From positions 62,001 through 126,000 of the forward strand of contig UBQX01000001.1 of the NCBI GenBank assembly GCA_900467685.1: a DNA stretch of 64,000 nt. Direction: 5' to 3'. The notes beneath the pieces are model-generated. The model worked only from the letters and a program-made list of their open reading frames with translations. It was not told the origin of the DNA and searched no databases. Each line of letters opens with the position of its first letter. The stretch's first letter is position 1. The stretch is from Hyphomicrobiales bacterium. GTDB lineage: Bacteria; Pseudomonadota; Alphaproteobacteria; Rhizobiales; Rhizobiaceae. This document shows, piece after piece, positions 44,247 through 63,910 of this stretch. Both the position numbers and the translations under genes were made by a program.

Positions 44247-44590
44247 AATAAGTCCCCCAAGATTAATAGATACATCGTGATGTATACGCTGATTTTGAAA
44301 ACATGATCAACGGCTGCGGTGAACCAAGAATTCGGTCCTGCTCTCTGGCGAGGCGATATGAAAACAGCTTTTCGCCAAGTTTACCGGGCCAACGTGCCTG
44401 CAAATTCGGGAAGGGGCACGATTTTGTCGGATGGCGGATGGGGTGTCCGCCATACTACCGTTCCAAGCCGTCCCACATCGCTCCATTTAGTCTATATTTT
44501 GCAGTAATTTAGCTTTTCACCCGTATCGACATGTGTCACGCTGTTCCATAGAATTGCGGTCATCTGTTAGGGTGTTTGTTGGGGTGGAAT
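44247..44590. other. Gene-free junction next to the integrase
   Basis: This 340-bp stretch holds no convincing gene and no tRNA that I can fold. Short frames at 44303-44512 lack ribosome binding sites and look accidental. It contains a perfect 8-bp inverted repeat, ATGGCGGA (44431-44438) and TCCGCCAT (44446-44453), around TGGGGTG. The left attachment site of the element should lie in or near this stretch, but its second copy is not in the window. Confidence 0.5.
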
Positions 44591-45805
44591 ATGGCTCTTT
44601 CATTGAACAAGCTGACCGCGCGCGGCGTGACCGCGATCACGAAGCCCGGCCGTCATGGCGACGGCGGCGGGCTCTATCTGGTCGTGGACAAGAGCGGCGC
44701 CAAGCGGTGGGTGTTCCTGTATCGGCGTGATGGCATATTGCGGGAGATGGGCCTCGGCGGCCTCAAATCCGTCCCGCTGGCGCGGGCTCGTGAGCTTGCC
44801 GGCCAAGCACGGGCAGACCTCCAGGCGGGCATTGATCCGATCGCTGCGAAGAACACCGCGCCGGTTGTCGTTCCCACGTTCGGGGAAGCTGCCGACGATT
44901 TCATCAACACGATGGCACCGCAGTTCAGAAACGCGAAGCACCTCGACCAATGGAAAATGACGCTGAAGGTTTACGCCGCGCCGCTCCGCTCCAAACGGGT
45001 TGACGAGATCACCACGGCCGATGTGCTGGAGGTGCTGAAACCGATATGGCTGGAAAAGCCCGAGACGTCCGCTCGCTTGCGCGGGCGTATCGAACGGGTT
45101 CTGGACGCGGCCAAGGCAAAAGGCCACCGCTCGGGCGAGAACCCGGCGCTATGGCGCGGTCATCTGGCAAACCTCCTGCCGAAGCGCAAGAAGCTGTCGC
45201 GCGGCCATCACGCGGCAATGGCCTATGAAGACGTGCCGACGTTCGTTGCCGATCTGCGTAAGCGGGAAGCGATGGCGGCGAGGGCGCTTGAATTCACGAT
45301 CCTGACGGCAGCCCGAACCGGCGAGACGTTCGGCGCGACTTGGAAGGAAATCGATCTTGAGGCGGCGTTGTGGACCGTTCCCGCTGAACGGATGAAAGCC
45401 GGCCGGGAGCATCGTGTTCCGTTGACGCCGCGGGCAGTCGAGATCCTGACCGAACTTGCCGACCTCGGCGCCGCGCCCGACGCCTATGTGTTCCCAGGCC
45501 AGAAGGAAGGGCGCCCGCTGTCGATCATGGCGATGGACATGATCCTGCGTCGGATGAAGGTCGATTTCACCGTTCACGGGTTCCGCTCGTCTTTCCGCGA
45601 TTGGAGCGGCAACGAGACGGCGTTCCCTCGGGACGTTGCAGAAGCCGCGCTGGCGCACGTCGTCGGCGATCAAACGGAGCGGGCTTACCGTCGCAGCGAC
45701 GCGCTGGAGAAGCGGCGCAAGCTCATGGTCGCATGGGCGAATTATTGCGAGCCGAAGAAGCCCGGCAATGTGCTGGAGATGCAACGCCCGAAACGGGCAT
45801 CTTGA
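44591..45805 (+). CDS. int: P4-type tyrosine integrase
   Basis: A site-specific recombinase of 404 residues that would integrate and excise the element. The N terminus has the DUF4102-type arm-binding domain (HGDGGGLYLVVDKSGAKRWV). The catalytic domain shows the active-site Arg in TAARTGE (near residue 241), HGFRSSFRDW (HxxR, near residue 330), LAHVVGD and the nucleophile Tyr in RAYRRSD (near residue 364). GGGGTGGAAT precedes the ATG. It marks the left end of the accessory region. Confidence 0.96.
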   Translation: MALSLNKLTARGVTAITKPGRHGDGGGLYLVVDKSGAKRWVFLYRRDGILREMGLGGLKSVPLARARELAGQARADLQAGIDPIAAKNTAPVVVPTFGEAADDFINTMAPQFRNAKHLDQWKMTLKVYAAPLRSKRVDEITTADVLEVLKPIWLEKPETSARLRGRIERVLDAAKAKGHRSGENPALWRGHLANLLPKRKKLSRGHHAAMAYEDVPTFVADLRKREAMAARALEFTILTAARTGETFGATWKEIDLEAALWTVPAERMKAGREHRVPLTPRAVEILTELADLGAAPDAYVFPGQKEGRPLSIMAMDMILRRMKVDFTVHGFRSSFRDWSGNETAFPRDVAEAALAHVVGDQTERAYRRSDALEKRRKLMVAWANYCEPKKPGNVLEMQRPKRAS

Positions 45806-46582: not shown

Positions 46583-46747
46583 ATAATAGATACTGGGCTT
46601 GACGGATCGCTCCCGGCAGGCCATCTTCAGACGATCAGGCGCTTACACCCGCGAGCCACCACCGACCTAACTCGCGAACTTGCCGCCAACTCTGTCAGCT
46701 CAACGCTGCGCATCGCAACGGGTCGCTTCACAAACTGGAGCAATGCG

Positions 46748-47002
46748 ATGCATTCGAACAAGCTTATCAATGCAATCTCGTCCACCAACGCAACTGAGCG
46801 GAACCGTGAGCGGTCGGCTCGACGCCAACTGTCACGCCTTGGGTTTCGTTTGGAGAAGACCCCAGCGCGGTCGTGGCTTCGGACCGAATACGGCCCCGGC
46901 TATCAGATCATTGAGGGCAATATCGTCGTGGCTGGCTGCTTCACTCGCCAGTATGAAATGACGCTTGAAGAGGTCGAAGCCCGGCTTTTGGATAGCAACT
47001 GA
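46748..47002 (+). CDS. Hypothetical small protein
   Basis: An 84-residue basic protein of unknown function. It has a helical Arg-rich first half (ERNRERSARRQLSRLGFRLE) and a second half with beta propensity (GPGYQIIEGNIVVAG) ending in an acidic helix. GGAG lies seven bases before the ATG, which supports the start. No signal peptide. Similar small proteins are common accessory genes in rhizobial prophages. Confidence 0.6.
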   Translation: MHSNKLINAISSTNATERNRERSARRQLSRLGFRLEKTPARSWLRTEYGPGYQIIEGNIVVAGCFTRQYEMTLEEVEARLLDSN

Positions 47003-51645: not shown

Positions 51646-51927
51646 ATGATCCGCATCGACACGATCGGTGCCCTGATCGAATACCGATATGATCTCAGCG
51701 TTCATTGTCACGCCTGGGACTGCCGGAACGGCGGCCGCGTTGACCTGGAAGCCCTCGCGCTGCGTCTCGGCAAAGGACACGGCTGCCTTGCGAAGGATCT
51801 CAAGCGGCATTTCCGCTGCTCAAAGTGTGGCAGCAGGGACGTCGGCTTCATCCTGAGCCCCTGCACTAACAGTCTGGCCGCTATCGCCAGCGCACCGATG
51901 CAGGAACTCAGAACTGTCAAGAGATAA
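51646..51927 (+). CDS. Small zinc-ribbon-like protein
   Basis: A 93-residue protein with a likely zinc-binding arrangement: Cys and His in VHCHAWDCRNGG near residue 22, a Cys in GHGCLAKDL, and CSKCGSRDVGF near residue 60. A DNA-binding or regulatory role is possible, but no family is certain. A G-rich stretch (TGGGGGC) lies before the ATG. Small proteins of this kind are frequent in rhizobial phage regions and near SRAP genes. Confidence 0.65.
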   Translation: MIRIDTIGALIEYRYDLSVHCHAWDCRNGGRVDLEALALRLGKGHGCLAKDLKRHFRCSKCGSRDVGFILSPCTNSLAAIASAPMQELRTVKR

Positions 51928-52036
51928 CAGAGTTCATCCGCAATTAGAGAGGTTCGTCGGCAACTGTGGCGGAGAAACAGGCAGTTAAACAAATCCCACG
52001 CCATTCGCGCTTGAGGCGGTTTTTCATGCAAATTTT

Positions 52037-52561
52037 TCAATGAGCCGGAAGAGCGCCAGAATGATTCATCGGGCCACCCCCGTTACCGTCCTCGCAGTGT
52101 GCCGTCCTGACGAAATCGGTCGCAGCGGCGTCAATGGAATCTTCGCTGATGGCGTATCTCGCTACTAGTCCAATCAGAGGTGAATAAGCTGTCACGGCCA
52201 AAAACCAAGCGCCCAGCGAGTTATGGTAAACTCGCTCCAATTCTGGGCGATGGACAAAAAACTCTGTCAGGACTTTCGCTGTTGCGTTACGCGAATAGCT
52301 TGGTATGCGCCTCGTCGGGAACGACGCCAAGACCATCGCCGCCTTTCGGTTGCAAATTGTCTCGTTCATCACGGCAACCCGCAGCAACAACTCGTGAGGC
52401 GTCTCATCATCCTCGACAAGCGCCTTAACGTCAGAATAGAACGAACGGGAGTATTTCCCGAAATCCACCGCAGACTTAGCTCGCAAGGCAACATAAGCTC
52501 GAAGCGCCATTACCACAGCGACGCCTGTTATTACGATCAAGATTGACAGCAAATAGCTCAT
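52037..52561 (-). CDS. Hypothetical single-pass membrane protein
   Basis: A 174-residue protein with an N-terminal membrane helix (SYLLSILIVITGVAVVMALR) and a second, weaker hydrophobic stretch near residue 120 (SLGAWFLAVTAYSPLIGLVA). The part between is helical and charged. Its start overlaps the stop of the upstream gene (ATGA), so the two form a unit. Function unknown; exclusion or lysis-related roles cannot be tested from sequence alone. Confidence 0.65.
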   Translation of the reverse strand: MSYLLSILIVITGVAVVMALRAYVALRAKSAVDFGKYSRSFYSDVKALVEDDETPHELLLRVAVMNETICNRKAAMVLASFPTRRIPSYSRNATAKVLTEFFVHRPELERVYHNSLGAWFLAVTAYSPLIGLVARYAISEDSIDAAATDFVRTAHCEDGNGGGPMNHSGALPAH

Positions 52562-53340: not shown

Positions 53341-55059
53341 TCAAAAACCACCCCCGCCGTTCCGGTCGGACGCTCGGCTCTGGAAAATGGCTTCCATGAG
53401 CGCGGCAGTCGGCAGAGGCACGACCCTGCCTGGGTCGTGGAAAAGGCCGCGGCTCATCAGCGCATCCGCGACATCGGCATTTCGGCGGGCGCGTTGCTTC
53501 TCAGCCATCGTGCCGAACAGCTTGTCTGCTACACGCGAAGACGCCGTGCCGAACTTGAGGTCGAGTGCGGAACGAACCGCCCCCGGCTGAGAAGCCGGCC
53601 CGTTGATCTCGTTCTGTGCGGCGGTCAGCGCTGCTGTCTTCGATCCGGCAAGGGCCTTGTTCTCCGTCTCGGCCATGATGCGCTCATTGTTCAGGATGCT
53701 GTAGAGCGCATCGGTTTTTTCCTTGCCGAAGAGCGTCGAGAGCCGCTGATAGTTCCAGTCGCTGTTGCCTTTCAGAAGGCTGTTCAGCGCGGCCCGGTCA
53801 TTCAGGTTCGTGCCCACGATGCGGTCAATCTCAGCCCGCGCGCCTTGGCGCAGCCGGAAGGAAACCCCGGACGGGCCGGTCACAAGATCGCCAGCCGGAA
53901 GAGCGCCGGCCGCCACCTCGTCCGCCAGCTCGGGCGGGCGCGGATCGGTGCGGGCATTCCCGAGCACGGTCTGGCCTCGATCGATCGCATCGCCTTGGCG
54001 GGCCAATTCGGCATACTGCGCATCGATGGCCTTGATGCCGGGGACCTTCGCCGCCAGCAGATCGTCAACGCTCTTGCGCACGGGCGTCAAGGCGCTGATC
54101 ACGTTCCCATCGGTTTCACCGTTCAGCATTCCGTCGATCGCGCGGCGGACCTGGAACAGTGTTGCCGGGGATTGGTCTAGGCGGTCGGTGCCGGTGGCAT
54201 TGAGCATCCCGCGGACTTCCCTAAGTGTTGATTGGGCTTTCCCCCGCAGTCCTTGGCCGGCAACTTCGATCTGCGCGGCAATCGGCGACGTGTCAACCAA
54301 AGGAGCGTTGGCGAGGACTTCATCATAGCGCGGGCCGAGAATGCGCTGGCCGCTCTTGATATCGCGCTGAAGGTAGGAAGGGATTGTGGCCGGTCCCATA
54401 TTCTCGTCGATCGCAGCGGTGAGACGCTCGGGCGCCGCATTGCGCCGCGCGCTGAGTGTGTCGACGATTGTCTTCTGTCCGGCTCCGGGCGTCGTCGCAA
54501 CGGCGGCGGCCTGGTCCCGAAGATTGGCCCCGAGATCGGCCACGACCGCGCTATCGCCGATGCCAGCGACTTGGCGGCCTACTTCCTGCGGTGCGATGCC
54601 GTCTGCCTTCAAGGCCCGAATGACCGGCTTGGGTACGGGCTTGCCGGCTTCATCCACCAATGCGCCGGATGGACGTGGAACGCCATCGGGCATGATCAGG
54701 CTAGCGAGATTGAACGATCGGCCGATGACATCGGGCGTCACGTTGCCTTCTGCATCGGTGACGGGCGTCTTCCCGGTATAGACGTCACCGGGGAGCTTCA
54801 GCGCGTCCATCAGGTCCGTCAGGATCTGCGGCGTTGAGAAAGCGATCTCGCCGGTCTTCTTGTTCTTCGCCAGCGGAATAATCGTCGGATGCGTCCACTC
54901 ATCGGCGGGCGCGCTTGTCGGCGCTGCATTCATTGGGGCGGCACCAACCGACCCGGCGGCTTGGGCTGCTGCCGGGTCTTCTGTGACGGGGAGCCCGGAG
55001 AAGCGCGGCTTCGGCGCCTGGTTGTCCTGCTCGACGGGAGTTCCTGAAAATCGGGGCAT
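53341..55059 (-). CDS. Probable phage internal virion (ejection-type) protein
   Basis: A 572-residue protein, helical and Ala/Arg/Asp-rich. It opens with a duplicated motif (PRFSGTPVEQDNQ and PRFSGLPVTED). A middle region (about residues 60-140) is followed by long helices (SIL NNERIMAETENKAL-type stretches near residue 470). No catalytic motif is recognised. Size, helicity and position among phage genes suggest an ejection or internal virion protein. The frame extends to 55323, but the ATG at 55059 follows CAGGAAAC and overlaps the upstream stop by one base. Confidence 0.75.
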   Translation of the reverse strand: MPRFSGTPVEQDNQAPKPRFSGLPVTEDPAAAQAAGSVGAAPMNAAPTSAPADEWTHPTIIPLAKNKKTGEIAFSTPQILTDLMDALKLPGDVYTGKTPVTDAEGNVTPDVIGRSFNLASLIMPDGVPRPSGALVDEAGKPVPKPVIRALKADGIAPQEVGRQVAGIGDSAVVADLGANLRDQAAAVATTPGAGQKTIVDTLSARRNAAPERLTAAIDENMGPATIPSYLQRDIKSGQRILGPRYDEVLANAPLVDTSPIAAQIEVAGQGLRGKAQSTLREVRGMLNATGTDRLDQSPATLFQVRRAIDGMLNGETDGNVISALTPVRKSVDDLLAAKVPGIKAIDAQYAELARQGDAIDRGQTVLGNARTDPRPPELADEVAAGALPAGDLVTGPSGVSFRLRQGARAEIDRIVGTNLNDRAALNSLLKGNSDWNYQRLSTLFGKEKTDALYSILNNERIMAETENKALAGSKTAALTAAQNEINGPASQPGAVRSALDLKFGTASSRVADKLFGTMAEKQRARRNADVADALMSRGLFHDPGRVVPLPTAALMEAIFQSRASDRNGGGGF

Positions 55060-56333
55060 CACGGTTTCCTGTATCTCTTGCCGTCTTCGGGATCGATGTA
55101 GATCGCGCCGGACGGGAGGGCGTCGAATTCTTGCTGAGTTTCCGGGCGGGCGAGGGCGGCTTGACCCGTCTGCGCTGCATTGTCCGGCGTCGCGACGCTC
55201 GCGCCAGCGTCCGCGCTGAAGCCGGGCGGCGGACCGGACTTGGCCGCCGCATCGATCATCGCCCGCCGAGCGTCCAGCGTCATGCCGGCTTCCATCGCAT
55301 TGACCGCGACCTGTCGCAGCCATGCTTTCAGTTGCAGCGTGTCCGGCGCATCTCCGGGCCTCGGCAACAGCGTCGCCTGGTAGTGCGCGATTTCCTTGTC
55401 CGGAGTAGCGGCGCCGCTCTCATTGCGCAGAACCGACTGAACGAAACGCTCGCCGGCATTGCGCGCGGCCTGATATTTCGGCGACTGGACATAATTCCCA
55501 GGGTTCACGGTCCCGATCGTCGGCGACGCCTCGGAAAGCCCCTGTGCGGTTGATGTCAGCTCGCTACCGTCTCGGGCAAGCACTTCGTTCATGGCTTTGG
55601 CCGTGGCCGCATAGTTCGCCAATCTGCTTTGCGCTTCGGTCAACGGCTTTCCGCCCTGCTGAACGACAGTGCCATCGGGTAGCGTGATAGACATGCTTGG
55701 CGGTTGGTCTTTCGGCGCGGGCTGCTGGCCGATGGCATCAAGCCGCGTTGCGATGCGCGGGCCGTCAGGCGTCGCGACGCTCTCGACCGGCGTATTCGCA
55801 AACACGATAGCCTTCTTCTGCTCGTCCGGCAGGTTTGCGAAGATGGCCGCTTTCAGCTCGTCCTGGGTCTGCGGCTTCGGCGCCCCGGCGCGCTCCGGCA
55901 TTGCCGGCAAGTCCAAAATCTTCATGAAGTCTTCGGAAACAGCCGGGGAGACCTGGCCGGGATCGAGCGGCCCGTTCAGCCCGACTATAACCTTGGTCTG
56001 GTTATCGAGTTGGTTCGCCCGGAGCGCCCGAATATTGTCAGCGGCATTGTTTGCGCGGGAGGTGAGATTGCTCTGGTCGACGGCGTAATAGCCCTGGCTC
56101 GGCGTCCATTGGCCGGCGGCAGCGCCCATGCGGTCAAAGCGGGTCTGGTCGAAGTCTTTGGCCTGGCTGTAATCGAATAGCTGGCCGAGCCGCGCCATCT
56201 CGGCGTTCTTCGAATTTGCCGTTGCCCACCCAGCAGCGTCAGCGCCGGAAGGCGGCGCAAACAGGCCGGCGAGATTGGACGCAGCCTGCGCAAGTCCGGG
56301 GTCTTGGATGTAAGGTGACGTCCTGATGGGCAT
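55059..56333 (-). CDS. Probable phage virion protein
   Basis: A 424-residue protein without a recognised family. The N-terminal part (PYIQDPGLAQAASNLAGLFA) and repeated Ala/Gln-rich helices fit a structural or ejection protein. The C terminus has ALPSGAIYIDPEDGKRYRKP, a short beta element often seen at the end of phage ejection proteins. Its stop overlaps the next start (TGATG), so the two are translated together. No signal peptide or membrane segment is present. Confidence 0.72.
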   Translation of the reverse strand: MPIRTSPYIQDPGLAQAASNLAGLFAPPSGADAAGWATANSKNAEMARLGQLFDYSQAKDFDQTRFDRMGAAAGQWTPSQGYYAVDQSNLTSRANNAADNIRALRANQLDNQTKVIVGLNGPLDPGQVSPAVSEDFMKILDLPAMPERAGAPKPQTQDELKAAIFANLPDEQKKAIVFANTPVESVATPDGPRIATRLDAIGQQPAPKDQPPSMSITLPDGTVVQQGGKPLTEAQSRLANYAATAKAMNEVLARDGSELTSTAQGLSEASPTIGTVNPGNYVQSPKYQAARNAGERFVQSVLRNESGAATPDKEIAHYQATLLPRPGDAPDTLQLKAWLRQVAVNAMEAGMTLDARRAMIDAAAKSGPPPGFSADAGASVATPDNAAQTGQAALARPETQQEFDALPSGAIYIDPEDGKRYRKP

Positions 56334-58772: not shown

Positions 58773-58865
58773 GACGGCCTTGCTATTTCAGGGGTGCGTT
58801 GTTTGACGGCACGCGCCCTTGAGGGCATTTTTGCAGCTACGCCACAACCTGGAAAGGCGTCAGCT

Positions 58866-59900
58866 ATGGCCAAAGTGTTCGATGATTTGGAGCCGAAAAC
58901 CAAGCCGGCCCGCCAAGCGCGTGCGGCAGATCCTGAAACCGAGCGGGCGCAACGCGAAGAGTTTTTAGCCCTCGTGACTTGCGGCATTCAAGTGATGATG
59001 CAAGACGCCTATTCCCGGCCGGGGCTCTCCGCCGAAGGAAAGGCGCGGGCGCTCAGCTACTACACACTGAGCCTGTCGGATGCGTTCGCGGCCGCGGATA
59101 AGATCCCAAAGGGACGATCTGCGTCAAGCGCCGCTCTCGACGTCCTTGATCACGTTTTTGGCTTGGAGCACTCGCTTGAACTTGACCCAGATCGGTCATG
59201 GCTGACTGAGATACGCGAAGGCAGACCACTTAAGCATCGTGCAGCGTGGGCAGGTTACGAGCCGCATAGCGTGATGAAGGAGCGTATAGCGCGGATGCGC
59301 CGGCCTTCGAAACGCATCGACGGGAGAATGCAGGTTGAGCGCCCAGAATGGCAGGGCTTGCCGTTTAACGATAGTGTTGCGCTTGAGGCGTTGAGCTGGG
59401 TGCGCTCCGAAGAGAAAATATTCGAGCGGCAACTGCACCAGCAAATGCAGAAGGTGGACGGCGACCTTCTGCGCAGCCGGTTGAAGACGCTGGAGAAAGA
59501 CGGCTGGATCAAGTCTGACAGAGAACCGGACGGAGCCATAACCTACCAATCCACGTCCAAGTTGCGGGACACAAGCTCACCCGAAACGCGGAAAGCGAGA
59601 CTCCCCAAACCAACTTTCGCAACGCCGACCGAACGCTATCACGCCAGAACGCGCGCCGCGCGAGTTGAACGAATAGCAGCCCTGCATAAAGAACCAAACG
59701 CCCGCAAGATACTGAGCGCGATCCGACGTCGAGGGCCGATGCAACTCAAGGAAATGGATTCGCTCGTCACTGGCTTCACACAGTTTGGTTTGCGGGACTT
59801 CATGATGGATCTGCGAGAAGGAGGTTGGGTCGAGTGCGTTGGACGAGGTGGCGGCGCGGCCTGGGCCGCCACCGAGAAGCTGATGAACGCAAAGATATGA
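58866..59900 (+). CDS. Hypothetical protein with a winged-helix-like C terminus
   Basis: A 344-residue protein of unknown function. The first 100 residues are helical (EEFLALVTCGIQVMMQDAYS). Two later segments resemble winged helices: SEEKIFERQLHQQMQKVDGD with LKTLEKDGWIKSDRE near residue 205, and ILSAIRRRGPMQLKEMDSLV with MDLREGGWVECVG near residue 290. The ATG at 58866 (AGCT before it) or a GTG at 58794 may be the start. A transcription-factor or plasmid/phage maintenance role is possible but unproved. Confidence 0.65.
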   Translation: MAKVFDDLEPKTKPARQARAADPETERAQREEFLALVTCGIQVMMQDAYSRPGLSAEGKARALSYYTLSLSDAFAAADKIPKGRSASSAALDVLDHVFGLEHSLELDPDRSWLTEIREGRPLKHRAAWAGYEPHSVMKERIARMRRPSKRIDGRMQVERPEWQGLPFNDSVALEALSWVRSEEKIFERQLHQQMQKVDGDLLRSRLKTLEKDGWIKSDREPDGAITYQSTSKLRDTSSPETRKARLPKPTFATPTERYHARTRAARVERIAALHKEPNARKILSAIRRRGPMQLKEMDSLVTGFTQFGLRDFMMDLREGGWVECVGRGGGAAWAATEKLMNAKI

Positions 59901-59923: not shown

Positions 59924-60241
59924 TCATTCAAAAACGCTGCCGTCGTCGCCTTCGGCCTCCAACTGCGCCAGCAGCGCGCGGCGGTCCCGCTCCAACTGGT
60001 CGCCCAAGGCTTTGAGCTCAGAGGCCGTTAACTCGTGCAATTGCTTCTCTGGGCCTTCCGGCCCGGCTGCAAAGAGGGAATTCGCCCGCATCAGTGACGA
60101 TGACGCCGTAGCCCGAGCATTTGCCGGCGCATTCTTGTCCTCGCAGATGCTGATTGCCGCATCCACGCAGGCCTCAAGGCCTCTGGTTCTCAGTTTATGA
60201 AGCGCCCGCATGCGGGCCGCTGCCTCTTCCTCGTTGTTCAC
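59924..60241 (-). CDS. Terminase small-subunit-like protein
   Basis: A 105-residue helical protein: ACVDAAISICEDKNAPANAR, TASSSLMRANSLFA and a C-terminal stretch LHELTASELKALGDQLERD. The pattern matches small proteins found before terminase large subunits in alphaproteobacterial prophages, so it may recognise phage DNA for packaging. It is coupled to the HGGxTG gene by an ATGA overlap. No large terminase follows in this window, which is unusual. Confidence 0.6.
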   Translation of the reverse strand: MNNEEEAAARMRALHKLRTRGLEACVDAAISICEDKNAPANARATASSSLMRANSLFAAGPEGPEKQLHELTASELKALGDQLERDRRALLAQLEAEGDDGSVFE

Positions 60242-60822
60242 GAAAACACCCCTTCGTCATCCTGTTGCTGTTCAGCCTGGGCCATCGCCCGATATCGATC
60301 GCGCTCGGTCTCCAGGAAGGCCGCTTGCGTCTGTAGCGCCTTGATCTCATCAGAGACCGGCCGCGGCTCGGCATTCTCGATCCGCTGCCGAAGCTCTTTC
60401 GCCTGTTGCCGGTCTTGCCTCTTGCGGGCTCTGACCGCTGCCGGGCCGAGCTGGTGCGTCTGGTGCCAGCGCTCGTGGGCCGCAAGCTGTTCCGGGCTCA
60501 TCTTCGCGCGGCGCTTCGCCTGGGCTTTCTTGTCCCGCTCGATCTGCTGAAGCTTGCGCTGCAATCTCGATTCAGCGTCGGGCGCATCGCCATTGGGAAA
60601 CAGATACCGGTGGTAATCCGCGCCTTTGCCTGTTCGGCCGCCGTGGAAATGGCAGCGGCCGTTTTCTTTGGCGAGCTGCTGGCAAGGCTCGCCGTCGCGC
60701 TTCCGCTTCGCCCCGCACTTAGGCAGCGTCTCACGCTTCGCGTTCCATCGCTTGATGGCCTCGCGGCTGATCATTCGCCACTGTGTCGATTGGCGCCATG
60801 CGCTCAGTCGGTCGCTCTTCAC
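60238..60822 (-). CDS. HGGxTG-motif phage protein
   Basis: A 194-residue basic protein. The defining region is CGAKRKRDGEPCQQLAKENG followed by CHFHGGRTGKG, i.e. CGAK...PCQ...C-x2-HGGxTG, near residues 36-68, which probably binds a metal. A long charged helix rich in Lys, Arg and Gln follows. Phage proteins with this motif often precede terminase genes; their role is unknown. The GTG at 60822 overlaps the stop of the frame upstream (GTGA); an ATG at 60774 is the alternative start. Confidence 0.8.
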   Translation of the reverse strand: MKSDRLSAWRQSTQWRMISREAIKRWNAKRETLPKCGAKRKRDGEPCQQLAKENGRCHFHGGRTGKGADYHRYLFPNGDAPDAESRLQRKLQQIERDKKAQAKRRAKMSPEQLAAHERWHQTHQLGPAAVRARKRQDRQQAKELRQRIENAEPRPVSDEIKALQTQAAFLETERDRYRAMAQAEQQQDDEGVFS

Positions 60823-61193
60823 AGCACATCTCCGACAAGGCCCATAGAGGTATCAAATTTGTAGCACTCCAGACCAGGGGCGCCCCGATCGCTCCAGAAG
60901 CTAAGGGAGACAGATTGTCCGGCCCCGCGACCCCAAAAGCCCAAGGGGTGGAGGCGGCAGCGCGGCTGGCGCGCAGCGCAGCCTCTCCCCCGTAGGGGTG
61001 CAATTCTGCGCAAACAATTCTGCGCACCCGCAACCCCCTGTGCAGCAAGGAGTCTTGCGCAATTCTGCGCAATTTCGCGCACTCCAATTTCGCGCAAAGC
61101 TATGCGCAATGATTTCAATGGCTTATCGGAATTTGCGCAAGATTGCGCGCAGAGTTTTGCGCAAGATCTGCGCACCTTGTTAACCCGTCTCAT
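60819..61193 (-). CDS. Doubtful 124-residue frame over the GCGCA repeats
   Basis: An open frame that starts at the ATG overlapping the primase stop (ATGA, 61190-61193) and ends in the GTGA overlap with the HGGxTG gene at 60819-60822. These two couplings argue for translation. The sequence itself does not: it is Cys/Arg/Ala-rich (RRSCAKLCAQSCANSD), has no recognised domain and is encoded by a short DNA repeat read in several phases. It may be an accidental frame over a control region. Confidence 0.3.
   Translation of the reverse strand: MRRVNKVRRSCAKLCAQSCANSDKPLKSLRIALREIGVREIAQNCARLLAAQGVAGAQNCLRRIAPLRGRGCAARQPRCRLHPLGFWGRGAGQSVSLSFWSDRGAPGLECYKFDTSMGLVGDVL
61002..61175. repeat. Array of eleven GCGCA motifs, iteron-like
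   Basis: GCGCA begins at 61008, 61022, 61057, 61067, 61077, 61092, 61104, 61135, 61147, 61159 and 61170, always in the same orientation on the plus strand. At least six copies have AATT or ATTT directly before a pyrimidine-rich or T junction, giving a core AATT-Y-Y-GCGCAA. Steps are 14, 35, 10, 10, 15, 12, 31, 12, 12 and 11 bp; the short steps are near one DNA turn. The array lies just downstream of the primase/helicase gene. An iteron origin or cooperative operator fits. Confidence 0.75.
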
Positions 61194-63910
61194 TCGAATA
61201 CTCCGGCATCTTGTGAAACCTTCGCGGACACTTTGTCGGGAATGACGATGTAGCCGTATTGCTTCTGACGTTGATCATTCTTGCCGATCGCGTCGAACCT
61301 AATCGCCCCGCGCGCCTCCAGGCGGTGCAGCGCGTTGGTGATGTCGTCCGTTGAGAACGCGGACAAGATGTCGTGGGCTCGCCGCTCAAGCACCCTCGGG
61401 GCGAAGTGGACGCTACGGGGCTTGTCCGACATGGGGACGCCGGGCATCTCAAGCAGGGCCGAAACAACCGCACTTTCTGCGGCGTCGTTCAGGCTCGGAA
61501 TGGCACCGGATGCGCTTGCATCACGAAGGACCGCAGGAGCGCTGCCGGCGAGCACGTCGAACGCGCCGCGGTTCCAGCGCAGCTTCAAGCCGGCGCCCTT
61601 CGCCCCATAGTTCAACTTCATATTCGTGAGCTGCCGGATATCGCCGCTCTTGGCCTTGCCCGGATACTGGAGATAGAGGCGGGAGCGGGAGGCGTTATTC
61701 CAGCCCGTCGAACCGGAGGTGCCATCACCTGAACTCTTGCCGGCGGCGGACGGATGGCCGAGCGCGATCACCGAGCCGCCAATCGATCGGCCCAAGCCGC
61801 CAAGGAAGCGCTTCACGAAGTCGTTGACTAGAACGCGGTCTATTTCAGAGCCCGCATAGATATCGGCGATTGTATCGAGGATCAGCACATCAGCATCGAA
61901 GGCAATCGCATCCTCGCGGATCTGGTGCCAGAATGCCGTTTTGGTGAGCGTCTGGCTTTTCCGGTCAAAGGTCGCAATGAAGTTGTCCTGAAAGTTCCTC
62001 GACACCAGGCGCAAGTTGCCGAGCTCGGAGAGGCTGACGCCGAGCGAACGGTTTATATCGAGCTGGCGACGGTGGAGCTCGGCCGCGCTGTCTTCGCAGA
62101 ATATGCACATCACACGAGCCGGGCGCGTGATCTGGCCTAGCCAACTCCGGCCCGTTGCCGCTGCCGTCGCGTACTGGTGCGCCAGCAGCGTTTTGCCGAT
62201 GCCGCCATCTCCGTAAAGCAAGGTGACTTCGCCGCGCGGTATCCAGCCCTCAACCTCCCACTCGCGGGGGAGCGGCTCGACGCCCTGCCAATCCCGGCAA
62301 GGGTCGATCCATCCCAACGGCGGCAGTTCTGCCACTGCCCTAGGCGCGCGCTCGACGGCCTGCGGCTCTGCCTGGAAGCCCTCGGCAATCAGTTCCTCGA
62401 CCTTGGCGGCAGACAGGCCGCTGTCGCTCAGAGTGGCCCATCGGTCCACAAGCTGCGTGAACGTCGCGGGATTGGAAATCCTCAGAGACGCCAGCAGCCC
62501 GCCATTTTCGCGGATGTCGTCAGCGTCCCATGATCCCGGCTCGCGCTTGCCGAAGCCTTGCCAATCGACGAATTCAAAGACGCGGGCAATCTCAAGATCG
62601 GCGGCTTTGTAGCCCATCGCCTGGGCGACCGTGAGGGACGCGCTTTTCCAATCGGCCGAGCCCGCGTAGGTCGGGAAGTTGTCGGAGCCGAGCCGGCGGC
62701 AAAGCCATGTTACGGCCTGGGCCGGAGTAGGGCGCCGGGCGCTGTCCTCCGCAACCTCGAAAACCTCACCATCTCCAGGCCGGTATTCCGGCGAGCCGCC
62801 GAAGTGAATTTCACCCTCGTCGTCAATCTCGCCAAACTCGCAAATAAGGCTCACCGGGTTATGCGCCCGGCGTGTTCCCCAGTCGTAGATGCCATCAGAG
62901 TAGATCGTGAGATCTTCCTCAAGTTCGCGGTCCAGGTGATCGGCGCCGATCCGCAATTCGCCTTCGTCGTTGCCGACGTTCAGGCCGAGCCCAAGCACAT
63001 CGGGCAGCCAATCCCTTTTGCGCTCCAGCGCCGCGCGTGTGATCGGGTCGCGCACCTTTGCCGAGGCGGCGCCGGGCTTGCGGGAAGGCTTCTTGCCAAC
63101 TGTGTAGCCGAGAGCTTCGGCCTTCTCTTTGATACGGGCGAAAATGACCGAAACGCCCTGTTCATCGACCAAGGGGAGATCGGACAGATTGTGTTCGGTG
63201 AGCGTGTTCATCTGCGGAACGCCGCTTTGGTGCATGCCGCTGACAACGACTTGCTGGCCTATTGCCAAGAACTCCAGTTGATGCCGATGGCCATCAGCCT
63301 CGAAGAACATTACGTCCTTGTAAAGTTCACCCTCGGTTCGGGCGAAATAGATGGCGCTGGTCGAGTTGGATCGCTCACGGCGCGGCATGCCATGCGGTGA
63401 CATTCCGAAGCGCTCGGCTAAGACGTTGCGGATCTCAGCGGCGAGCCGGCGCGCCTGCACATCGTGGGGCGCCGATGACGACGGGTCCACCTTGATATCG
63501 CTGTCGAAGGCGACAAGGCCGAAGCCGGTGCGAATGCCAATCCCGGTTTCGGCGGGCAAGGTCTTCCAAGTTCCGAGATCGATCGACGGGGCGTTCGTCC
63601 AGTTCCAAGCGTTGCGCCAGTTCGTGCCGTTCCACTCGCCGGGAACCTTACCATTTGCGGGGCGGGACTGCCCGCTGACATACGCGCCGCAGGGGGCGAG
63701 CGGCAGCATCAGCTTGCCATAGCCGCGGGCGTCGAGCGCTCTGGCGCGCTGATATACGGGAAGCAACTCAGGGGGCGCCGGTTCAGGCTTTGCCGTGGCT
63801 GTTGCGGGAGGCTGCTGCGGCTCGGTTTTCGGCGGTTGCGCGGCACTTCTGGCCTGAACCGCGTCCGCGAGAGAATTGCCGTTTCGGCTTCCTTGGTGTA
63901 TATTGACCAT
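61190..63910 (-). CDS. Phage primase/helicase with a RecA-like ATPase
   Basis: A replication protein of about 906 residues. The N-terminal half (about residues 40-300) resembles bifunctional primase/polymerase domains of phage and plasmid proteins: TGIGIRTGFGLVAFDSDIKV with a metal-site Asp pattern and HGMPRRERSNSTSAIYFAR. The C-terminal half (from about residue 545) is a RecA/RepA-type ATPase (AAA_25-like) with Walker A LLYGDGGIGKTLLAHQ near residue 565 and Walker B VLILDTIADIYAG. It would open and prime the element's DNA. A trailing segment near residue 870 may be a winged helix. The TTG/ATG start region at 63910 is just inside the right edge. Confidence 0.85.
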   Translation of the reverse strand: MVNIHQGSRNGNSLADAVQARSAAQPPKTEPQQPPATATAKPEPAPPELLPVYQRARALDARGYGKLMLPLAPCGAYVSGQSRPANGKVPGEWNGTNWRNAWNWTNAPSIDLGTWKTLPAETGIGIRTGFGLVAFDSDIKVDPSSSAPHDVQARRLAAEIRNVLAERFGMSPHGMPRRERSNSTSAIYFARTEGELYKDVMFFEADGHRHQLEFLAIGQQVVVSGMHQSGVPQMNTLTEHNLSDLPLVDEQGVSVIFARIKEKAEALGYTVGKKPSRKPGAASAKVRDPITRAALERKRDWLPDVLGLGLNVGNDEGELRIGADHLDRELEEDLTIYSDGIYDWGTRRAHNPVSLICEFGEIDDEGEIHFGGSPEYRPGDGEVFEVAEDSARRPTPAQAVTWLCRRLGSDNFPTYAGSADWKSASLTVAQAMGYKAADLEIARVFEFVDWQGFGKREPGSWDADDIRENGGLLASLRISNPATFTQLVDRWATLSDSGLSAAKVEELIAEGFQAEPQAVERAPRAVAELPPLGWIDPCRDWQGVEPLPREWEVEGWIPRGEVTLLYGDGGIGKTLLAHQYATAAATGRSWLGQITRPARVMCIFCEDSAAELHRRQLDINRSLGVSLSELGNLRLVSRNFQDNFIATFDRKSQTLTKTAFWHQIREDAIAFDADVLILDTIADIYAGSEIDRVLVNDFVKRFLGGLGRSIGGSVIALGHPSAAGKSSGDGTSGSTGWNNASRSRLYLQYPGKAKSGDIRQLTNMKLNYGAKGAGLKLRWNRGAFDVLAGSAPAVLRDASASGAIPSLNDAAESAVVSALLEMPGVPMSDKPRSVHFAPRVLERRAHDILSAFSTDDITNALHRLEARGAIRFDAIGKNDQRQKQYGYIVIPDKVSAKVSQDAGVFE

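Follow-up and report, generated by a model that had tools for sequence, protein, structure and literature searches.

SaPI Rep is an AAA+/MCM-like helicase. The alpha protein of phage P4 combines a primase, an AAA+ (SF3-type) helicase and an origin-binding winged helix in one protein, and the phage has a repeat-bearing origin as well as a second, distant site, crr. Iterons often double as regulatory sites, and the origin has, to our knowledge, been mapped in only a minority of temperate phages. In SaPI/PICI elements, the C-terminal domain of Rep recognises an iteron origin that is located directly downstream of the rep gene, and the origin passages of the source papers describe an A/T-rich stretch with a set of iterons on either side (PMC7581432, PMC6092414). 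The oriV of IncQ plasmids contains iterons, which are 20 bp long in IncQ-3, and short G/C palindromes, one of which is ACCCCCGGAGGGGGT (oriV passages of PMC7557826). In the open-access literature, a search of titles and the openings of abstracts returned no description of the present helicase family with a downstream array.

We analyzed a 64-kb stretch of DNA (the window) in which an array of GCGCA repeats beside a primase/helicase gene had been proposed as a candidate iteron origin. The analysis supports this proposal: arrays occupy the same place in about half of 94 relatives, usually with other units, and the sequence comparisons make it very probable that an integrated element starts its replication at this array, an origin of the iteron type that is read by the adjacent helicase. 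By analogy, our best reading is that the arrangement works like the rep-ori of SaPI/PICI elements but with a motor of the RSF1010 RepA type.

With P4 alpha and its ori/crr sites the locus shares the combination of primase, helicase and predicted winged helix in one chain and a putative origin with repeats; unlike P4 alpha, its helicase is not of the AAA+ (SF3-type) kind. The array is located directly 3' of the gene of the putative initiator and its 7 and 4 cores flank an A/T-richer centre (61107-61125), as in the SaPI/PICI rep-ori, whereas the motor is RecA-type with RSF1010 RepA as nearest relative, unlike the AAA+/MCM-like Rep. The C box and IHF-like centre presented below are absent from the origin passages of the SaPI/PICI papers (PMC7581432, PMC6092414). 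A homologous RepA-type hexameric helicase core, a primase, and iterons accompanied by a short G/C box are shared with IncQ/RSF1010. Unlike the IncQ cluster repBAC, the locus fuses the primase-like part, the helicase and the winged helix in a single 906-aa chain, no RepC-like match was present among the neighbouring ORFs scanned, and most steps between the repeats are 10-15 bp, unlike the 20-bp iterons given for IncQ-3 in PMC7557826. We therefore assign the module to neither system, because its helicase is not that of the PICIs and its gene set is not that of IncQ.

The Repeat Array and Its Position

The primase/helicase gene (61190-63910, minus strand), which encodes the 906-aa proposed initiator, matches PF13481 (AAA_25) and the PHROG families of DNA polymerase/primase and primase/helicase. 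A scan of the 64-kb window counted eleven GCGCA sites on the plus strand within 167 bp (61008-61174), in line with the eleven in about 170 bp announced beforehand, with first bases at 61008, 61022, 61057, 61067, 61077, 61092, 61104, 61135, 61147, 61159, and 61170 and steps of 14, 35, 10, 10, 15, 12, 31, 12, 12, and 11 bp. Read on the minus strand as the helicase gene, the iteron array (61007-61174) contains 11 cores, 8 of them in TGCGCA, arranged as 7 + 4 around a central spacer. It starts 16 bp behind the end of the primase/helicase ORF, which confirms the adjacency to this gene, and sits in the gap between the stop of the helicase and the ORF at 60238-60822 (minus strand), which encodes an HGGxSTG domain protein. 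Elsewhere on the plus strand of the window the maximum is 5 GCGCA per 175 bp, and the maximum in 40 simulated first-order Markov sequences of 64 kb each was 6. The three-unit pattern used to search the 5.05-Mb genome gave 10 matches, four at the array and six singles on six other contigs, and no second GCGCA-type cluster was found elsewhere in the genome with this pattern.

The original prediction also described the repeats as helically phased and all in one orientation. The phasing was not recovered: the vector strength at 10.5 bp was R 0.22, and the best period of the cores within 10-11.5 bp was 11.45 bp (R 0.76, P 0.024 under random placement with a minimum spacing of 10), a weak regularity. 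The orientation stands in so far as all 11 sites are on the plus strand, but it is mostly uninformative because 8 of the 11 are the palindrome TGCGCA. The GC skew, which had been suggested as a check, shows no clean turn at the array. The lowest-GC 60-bp step in 60400-61600 is 61060-61119 (GC 0.45). The block extends past the array as first reported, with CAATGATTTCAATGGCTTA at its centre (61107-61125) and, at 60987-60999, a CCCCCGTAGGGGT box; along the helicase coding strand, the order is iterons, CATTGAAATCATTG, iterons, and then ACCCCTACGGGGG.

Arrays Behind the Helicase Gene in Relatives

Relatives of the helicase were collected from IMG/VR, same-family genomes, class and phylum samples, GTDB contigs, and phage records. 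One IMG/VR search contributed the best 80 of 282 helicase relatives. With the own genome included each time, a relative was present in 19 of 297 same-family genomes (E 1e-20), in 5 of 385 genomes of the class sample with query A3 at 1e-60 and 9 of 385 with query A4 at 1e-40, and in 11 of 398 genomes of the phylum sample. GTDB contigs gave 10 helicase loci, and phage records gave 43 matches, three of which, all Wolbachia phages, had a query coverage of at least 80%. Duplicates (L025, L026, L029, L035, L036, L038, and L040) and weak partial matches (L003, L116, and L117) were left out. Loci with >60% of their 5-mers in common over the last 330 residues were collapsed, which removed 20 of 117 and left 97; leaving out 3 that lacked the stop or 250 bp behind it gave 94 testable loci.

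In a fixed test, the 250 bp that follow the helicase stop were scored by their best 7-mer, one mismatch being allowed, against the other windows of the same locus. The downstream 250 bp outscored every control window of its own locus in 48 of the 94 loci and was not strictly best in 46; of 4254 control windows, 758 equalled or exceeded the downstream window of their locus, nearly all in loci without a clear downstream array. Of the loci fetched early, 16 of 23 passed, as did 32 of the 71 fetched after the idea had formed and 4 of the 11 evaluable loci of the last set (12 loci, one not evaluable, near-duplicates L133 and L142-L144 left out). The expectation that related elements carry the same array beside the primase gene thus holds for the position in these 48 loci, but the units usually differ and some relatives have no array: none was adjacent to the helicase in, e.g., L041, L043, L097, and L105, and none was seen by eye in L132, L138, and L140 of the last set. 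The units found behind the stop include TGCGYCA (L001), GCGTGTCGT (L002), TTCCACC (L006, L011), TTCGAAC (L007), TTCCAACGG (L021), CAGACGCC (L022), and ACGCAAAGT (L121); by eye, the non-palindromic units of L001 and L121 read as direct repeats. In L018, L085, L104, and L106 the array overlaps the 3' end of the helicase gene, so that translation of the iterons gives the helicase a repetitive tail, and in L123 and L124 it is located further downstream, beyond an early-ending ORF.

The arrays occur in phage-sized IMG/VR contigs, in genomes, and in Wolbachia phage WO. The WO RepA is homologous to the helicase of the window, C-terminal domain included, and is followed directly by TGGCAAGA-type repeats, an IHF-like AATCAATAGCTTA site, and a CCTCCTATATAGAGG palindrome (L128, 3700-3900). 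Unlike the window, the WO locus is A/T-rich and has at least one inverted unit. Across the 12 of 15 relevant places of the WO genomics paper that were covered, "origin of replication" denotes that of the Wolbachia chromosome.

To look at selection, the window was compared with L118, L119, and L120, which are 96-97% identical in the helicase region. Loss of the repeats from close relatives that keep the primase gene had been named as evidence against an origin, and L118-L120 have all kept the array. Among these four close relatives, 1 of 68 positions varied in the iteron cores vs 27 of 96 in the spacers (P 1.5e-6), the one altered core position belonging to L118, and no position varied in the centre (0/12) or the box (0/15). 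The 75 bp directly behind the array are fairly conserved (7/75 vary), whereas the next 60 bp are not (26/60). L119 and L120 share the helicase gene and the array with the window and then diverge, behind the array, from both the window and L118, which indicates that helicase gene and array travel together.

The Central Element and the Terminal Box

The central element CAATGATTTCAATGGCTTA (61107-61125, plus strand) has one mismatch to the IHF consensus, which is WATCARNNNNTTR. A perfect IHF site is absent from the window, from L118-L120, and from L001, and is found at the central place in L121, L122, L124, L126, and L127. The terminal box ACCCCTACGGGGG (60987-60999, minus strand) does not vary among the four close relatives and seems to be the counterpart of a CCC(C/T)ATACCC box of more distant relatives, whose place is taken by CCCC-N3-GGGG in the window's own branch. 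The C box was searched on either strand in the interval that begins 60 bp ahead of the helicase stop and ends 360 bp behind it, with control stretches of equal length. Both patterns were picked after part of the data had been viewed. With descent not corrected for, the C box was found in 41 of 94 loci compared with 2 of 1253 control stretches and the IHF-like site in 19 of 94 compared with 35 of 1253. Among loci that were not used to find the C-box pattern the counts were 29 of 71 vs 2 of 1028, and in the last-fetched set the C box occurred at 4 of 11 loci and in none of 78 control stretches; for the IHF-like site, the 71 later-fetched loci gave 18 vs 30 of 1028 control stretches. As a separate observation, ACCCCTACGGGGG (60987-60999) resembles the palindrome ACCCCCGGAGGGGGT listed in the IncQ oriV passages of PMC7557826.

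Predicted Folds of the Primase/Helicase

The N-terminal primase-like part of the 906-aa protein (residues 53-291; 63038-63754, minus strand) matches phrog_1156, a DNA primase family, with E 8.8e-13. The AAA_25 core was detected with a Pfam E-value of 5.6e-28, and the Pfam scan returned nothing beyond AAA_25 above the cut-off. AlphaFold2 modelling of the last 389 residues, based on 46 sequences (mean pLDDT 85.9), gave a RecA-type core followed by a confident C-terminal domain. The RecA-type hexameric-helicase core (61544-62272, minus strand) has RSF1010 RepA as its nearest solved relative: RepA takes Foldseek ranks 1-4 for the helicase model, and a sequence profile also finds it (1g8y, E 6e-16) over positions 6-230 of 347, with the C-terminal domain not covered. 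The C-terminal domain (61241-61495, minus strand), which we propose as the reader of the iterons, is predicted as a winged helix with three main helices (290-304, 320-327, and 337-349 in the AlphaFold2 model) and a beta wing (strands 353-360 and 366-372). Modelled in isolation (118 residues), it reached a mean pLDDT of 78.1, and Foldseek returned mostly winged-helix proteins (MarR, PadR, and the DnaD N-domain) with weak E-values, the best being 0.044.

Co-variation of the Array and the C-Terminal Domain

If the C-terminal domain is the reader, array and domain should co-vary. The correlation test covered the 60 loci, of 73 aligned, whose arrays had sufficient repeated 6-mers. With descent not corrected for, the k-mer similarity of the arrays correlated with the identity of the winged helix (r 0.53) and with that of the ATPase (r 0.48). 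Shared descent explains part of this signal, since ATPase identity also correlates with the spelling of the array. The partial correlations were 0.28 for the winged helix (reached in 0 of 1000 permutations) and 0.12 for the ATPase (2 of 1000). We also contrasted loci with TTCCACC units (12 loci) and TTCCAAC units (7 loci), two small classes that were picked after the data had been seen and were not corrected for descent: the top four discriminating columns were all in the winged helix (89 columns) and none in the ATPase (240 columns), with P 1.6e-4 to 7.1e-4 compared to 6.3e-3 for the best ATPase column. Two of the discriminating columns immediately precede a conserved YAP motif (G to S and N to T). 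The spelling of the array is thus apparently matched to the DNA-binding tail of its own helicase.

These results bear on the proposal that the array is an operator, bound by a repressor or by the helicase itself and controlling transcription of the helicase gene or the next gene. The ORF at 58794-59900 may code for a regulator (phrog_2440, E 4e-4). Yet the array stands behind the helicase gene and not in front of it, and its unit changes with the C-terminal domain of the helicase. A scan of 60500-61700 gave no sigma-70-like promoter, which is weak evidence against an operator, and one terminator-like site; the scan is uninformative because shuffled sequences averaged just 0.2 promoters and 1.7 terminators. 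The cooperative repressor site that had been offered as an alternative to an origin is therefore weakened by the co-variation of the repeats with the C-terminal domain of the helicase, and we regard an operator as improbable. Autoregulation by the helicase would be compatible with an origin.

The Integrated Element

The locus is part of an integrated element of 21.4 kb in tRNA-Ser (44432-65841, the end being beyond the window), which may be a decayed prophage or a member of a satellite family. At the opposite end from the array, a tyrosine integrase gene (44576-45805, plus strand) lies beside the att core TGGCGGATGGGGTG (44432-44445, plus strand). The twin of this core is the 3' end of tRNA-Ser at window coordinate 65828, beyond the window. 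In the same-genus genome L150, the flanks of the element are about 0.2 kb apart and the element is absent. The element carries a tail-fibre-like gene, a resolvase-type serine recombinase gene, and a SRAP gene (PF02586; 50858-51565, plus strand), to which an ORF in L152 is similar by eye. Two large ORFs in overlapping frames (660 and 424 aa, the first matching phrog_5880, a family of unknown function) are present at 53341-56333 (minus strand), and by eye two large ORFs are also found at the equivalent place in L152 and L153, the latter (R. metallidurans) having a similarly compact layout. The scanned ORFs of the element (listed ORFs of at least 90 aa except 46680-46961 and 51708-52040) gave no match to a terminase, portal, or capsid family.

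Repeated terminase-binding R sites together with an IHF site make up cosB of phage lambda, and the array could in principle be a packaging site of this kind, bound by a small terminase that marks the DNA for packaging. The repeats and the IHF-like site do adjoin a gene of unknown function, and in L061 the large terminase subunit starts 1.7 kb behind the helicase stop. However, neither this next gene, the HGGxSTG gene at 60238-60822, nor the other scanned ORFs of the element matched a terminase family, the array spelling follows the C-terminal domain of the helicase, and helicase gene and array have been kept together while L119 and L120 diverge behind them. A search of the L118-L121 genomes with phrog_9, the sole terminase family sought, gave one weak match in one of the four, on a contig whose number differs from that of the L119 stretch. 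Taken together, we consider a packaging site very unlikely. It is hardly credible that the array has nothing to do with replication and is instead a transcribed RNA element or the product of neutral repeat expansion: short repeats can expand by slippage, but the cores are conserved where the spacers vary, many relatives carry different units at the same position, and the RNA candidate was rejected with the sole Rfam match among those listed scoring 15.2 against a gathering score of 38 bits.

Discussion

In the iteron origin that we favour, the C-terminal winged helix of the primase/helicase would, after excision of the element, bind the TTGCGCA iterons on both sides of the A/T-richer centre, where an IHF-type bend may help. 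Binding would lead to assembly of the RepA-type hexameric helicase on the melted strands, after which the N-terminal primase would start synthesis, perhaps at the terminal C/G box ACCCCTACGGGGG, a possible priming site by analogy. Gene and site would form one self-contained module in which the iterons and the reader domain change together, and elements would therefore differ in origin specificity.

It is about evenly poised whether the loci described here represent a large unnamed class of self-contained replicons, carried by prophages and by small integrated elements in Alphaproteobacteria and further classes of the phylum. Such a class would be defined by an RSF1010 RepA-type helicase, often fused to a primase, a winged-helix reader, and a co-evolving iteron array, giving many mutually exclusive origin-initiator pairs with the C/G box as shared priming site. 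The arrangement would allow the origin of such an element to be found by reading the DNA behind its helicase gene, and its naturally matched pairs of reader and site could be used to study how winged-helix specificity changes. The satellite-type layout of an initiator followed by iterons occurs here with another family of helicases. This is relevant to the question of whether the layout reflects common descent, as has been argued for PICIs, or convergence, and in this respect the present loci, with their different helicase, look like a counter-example.
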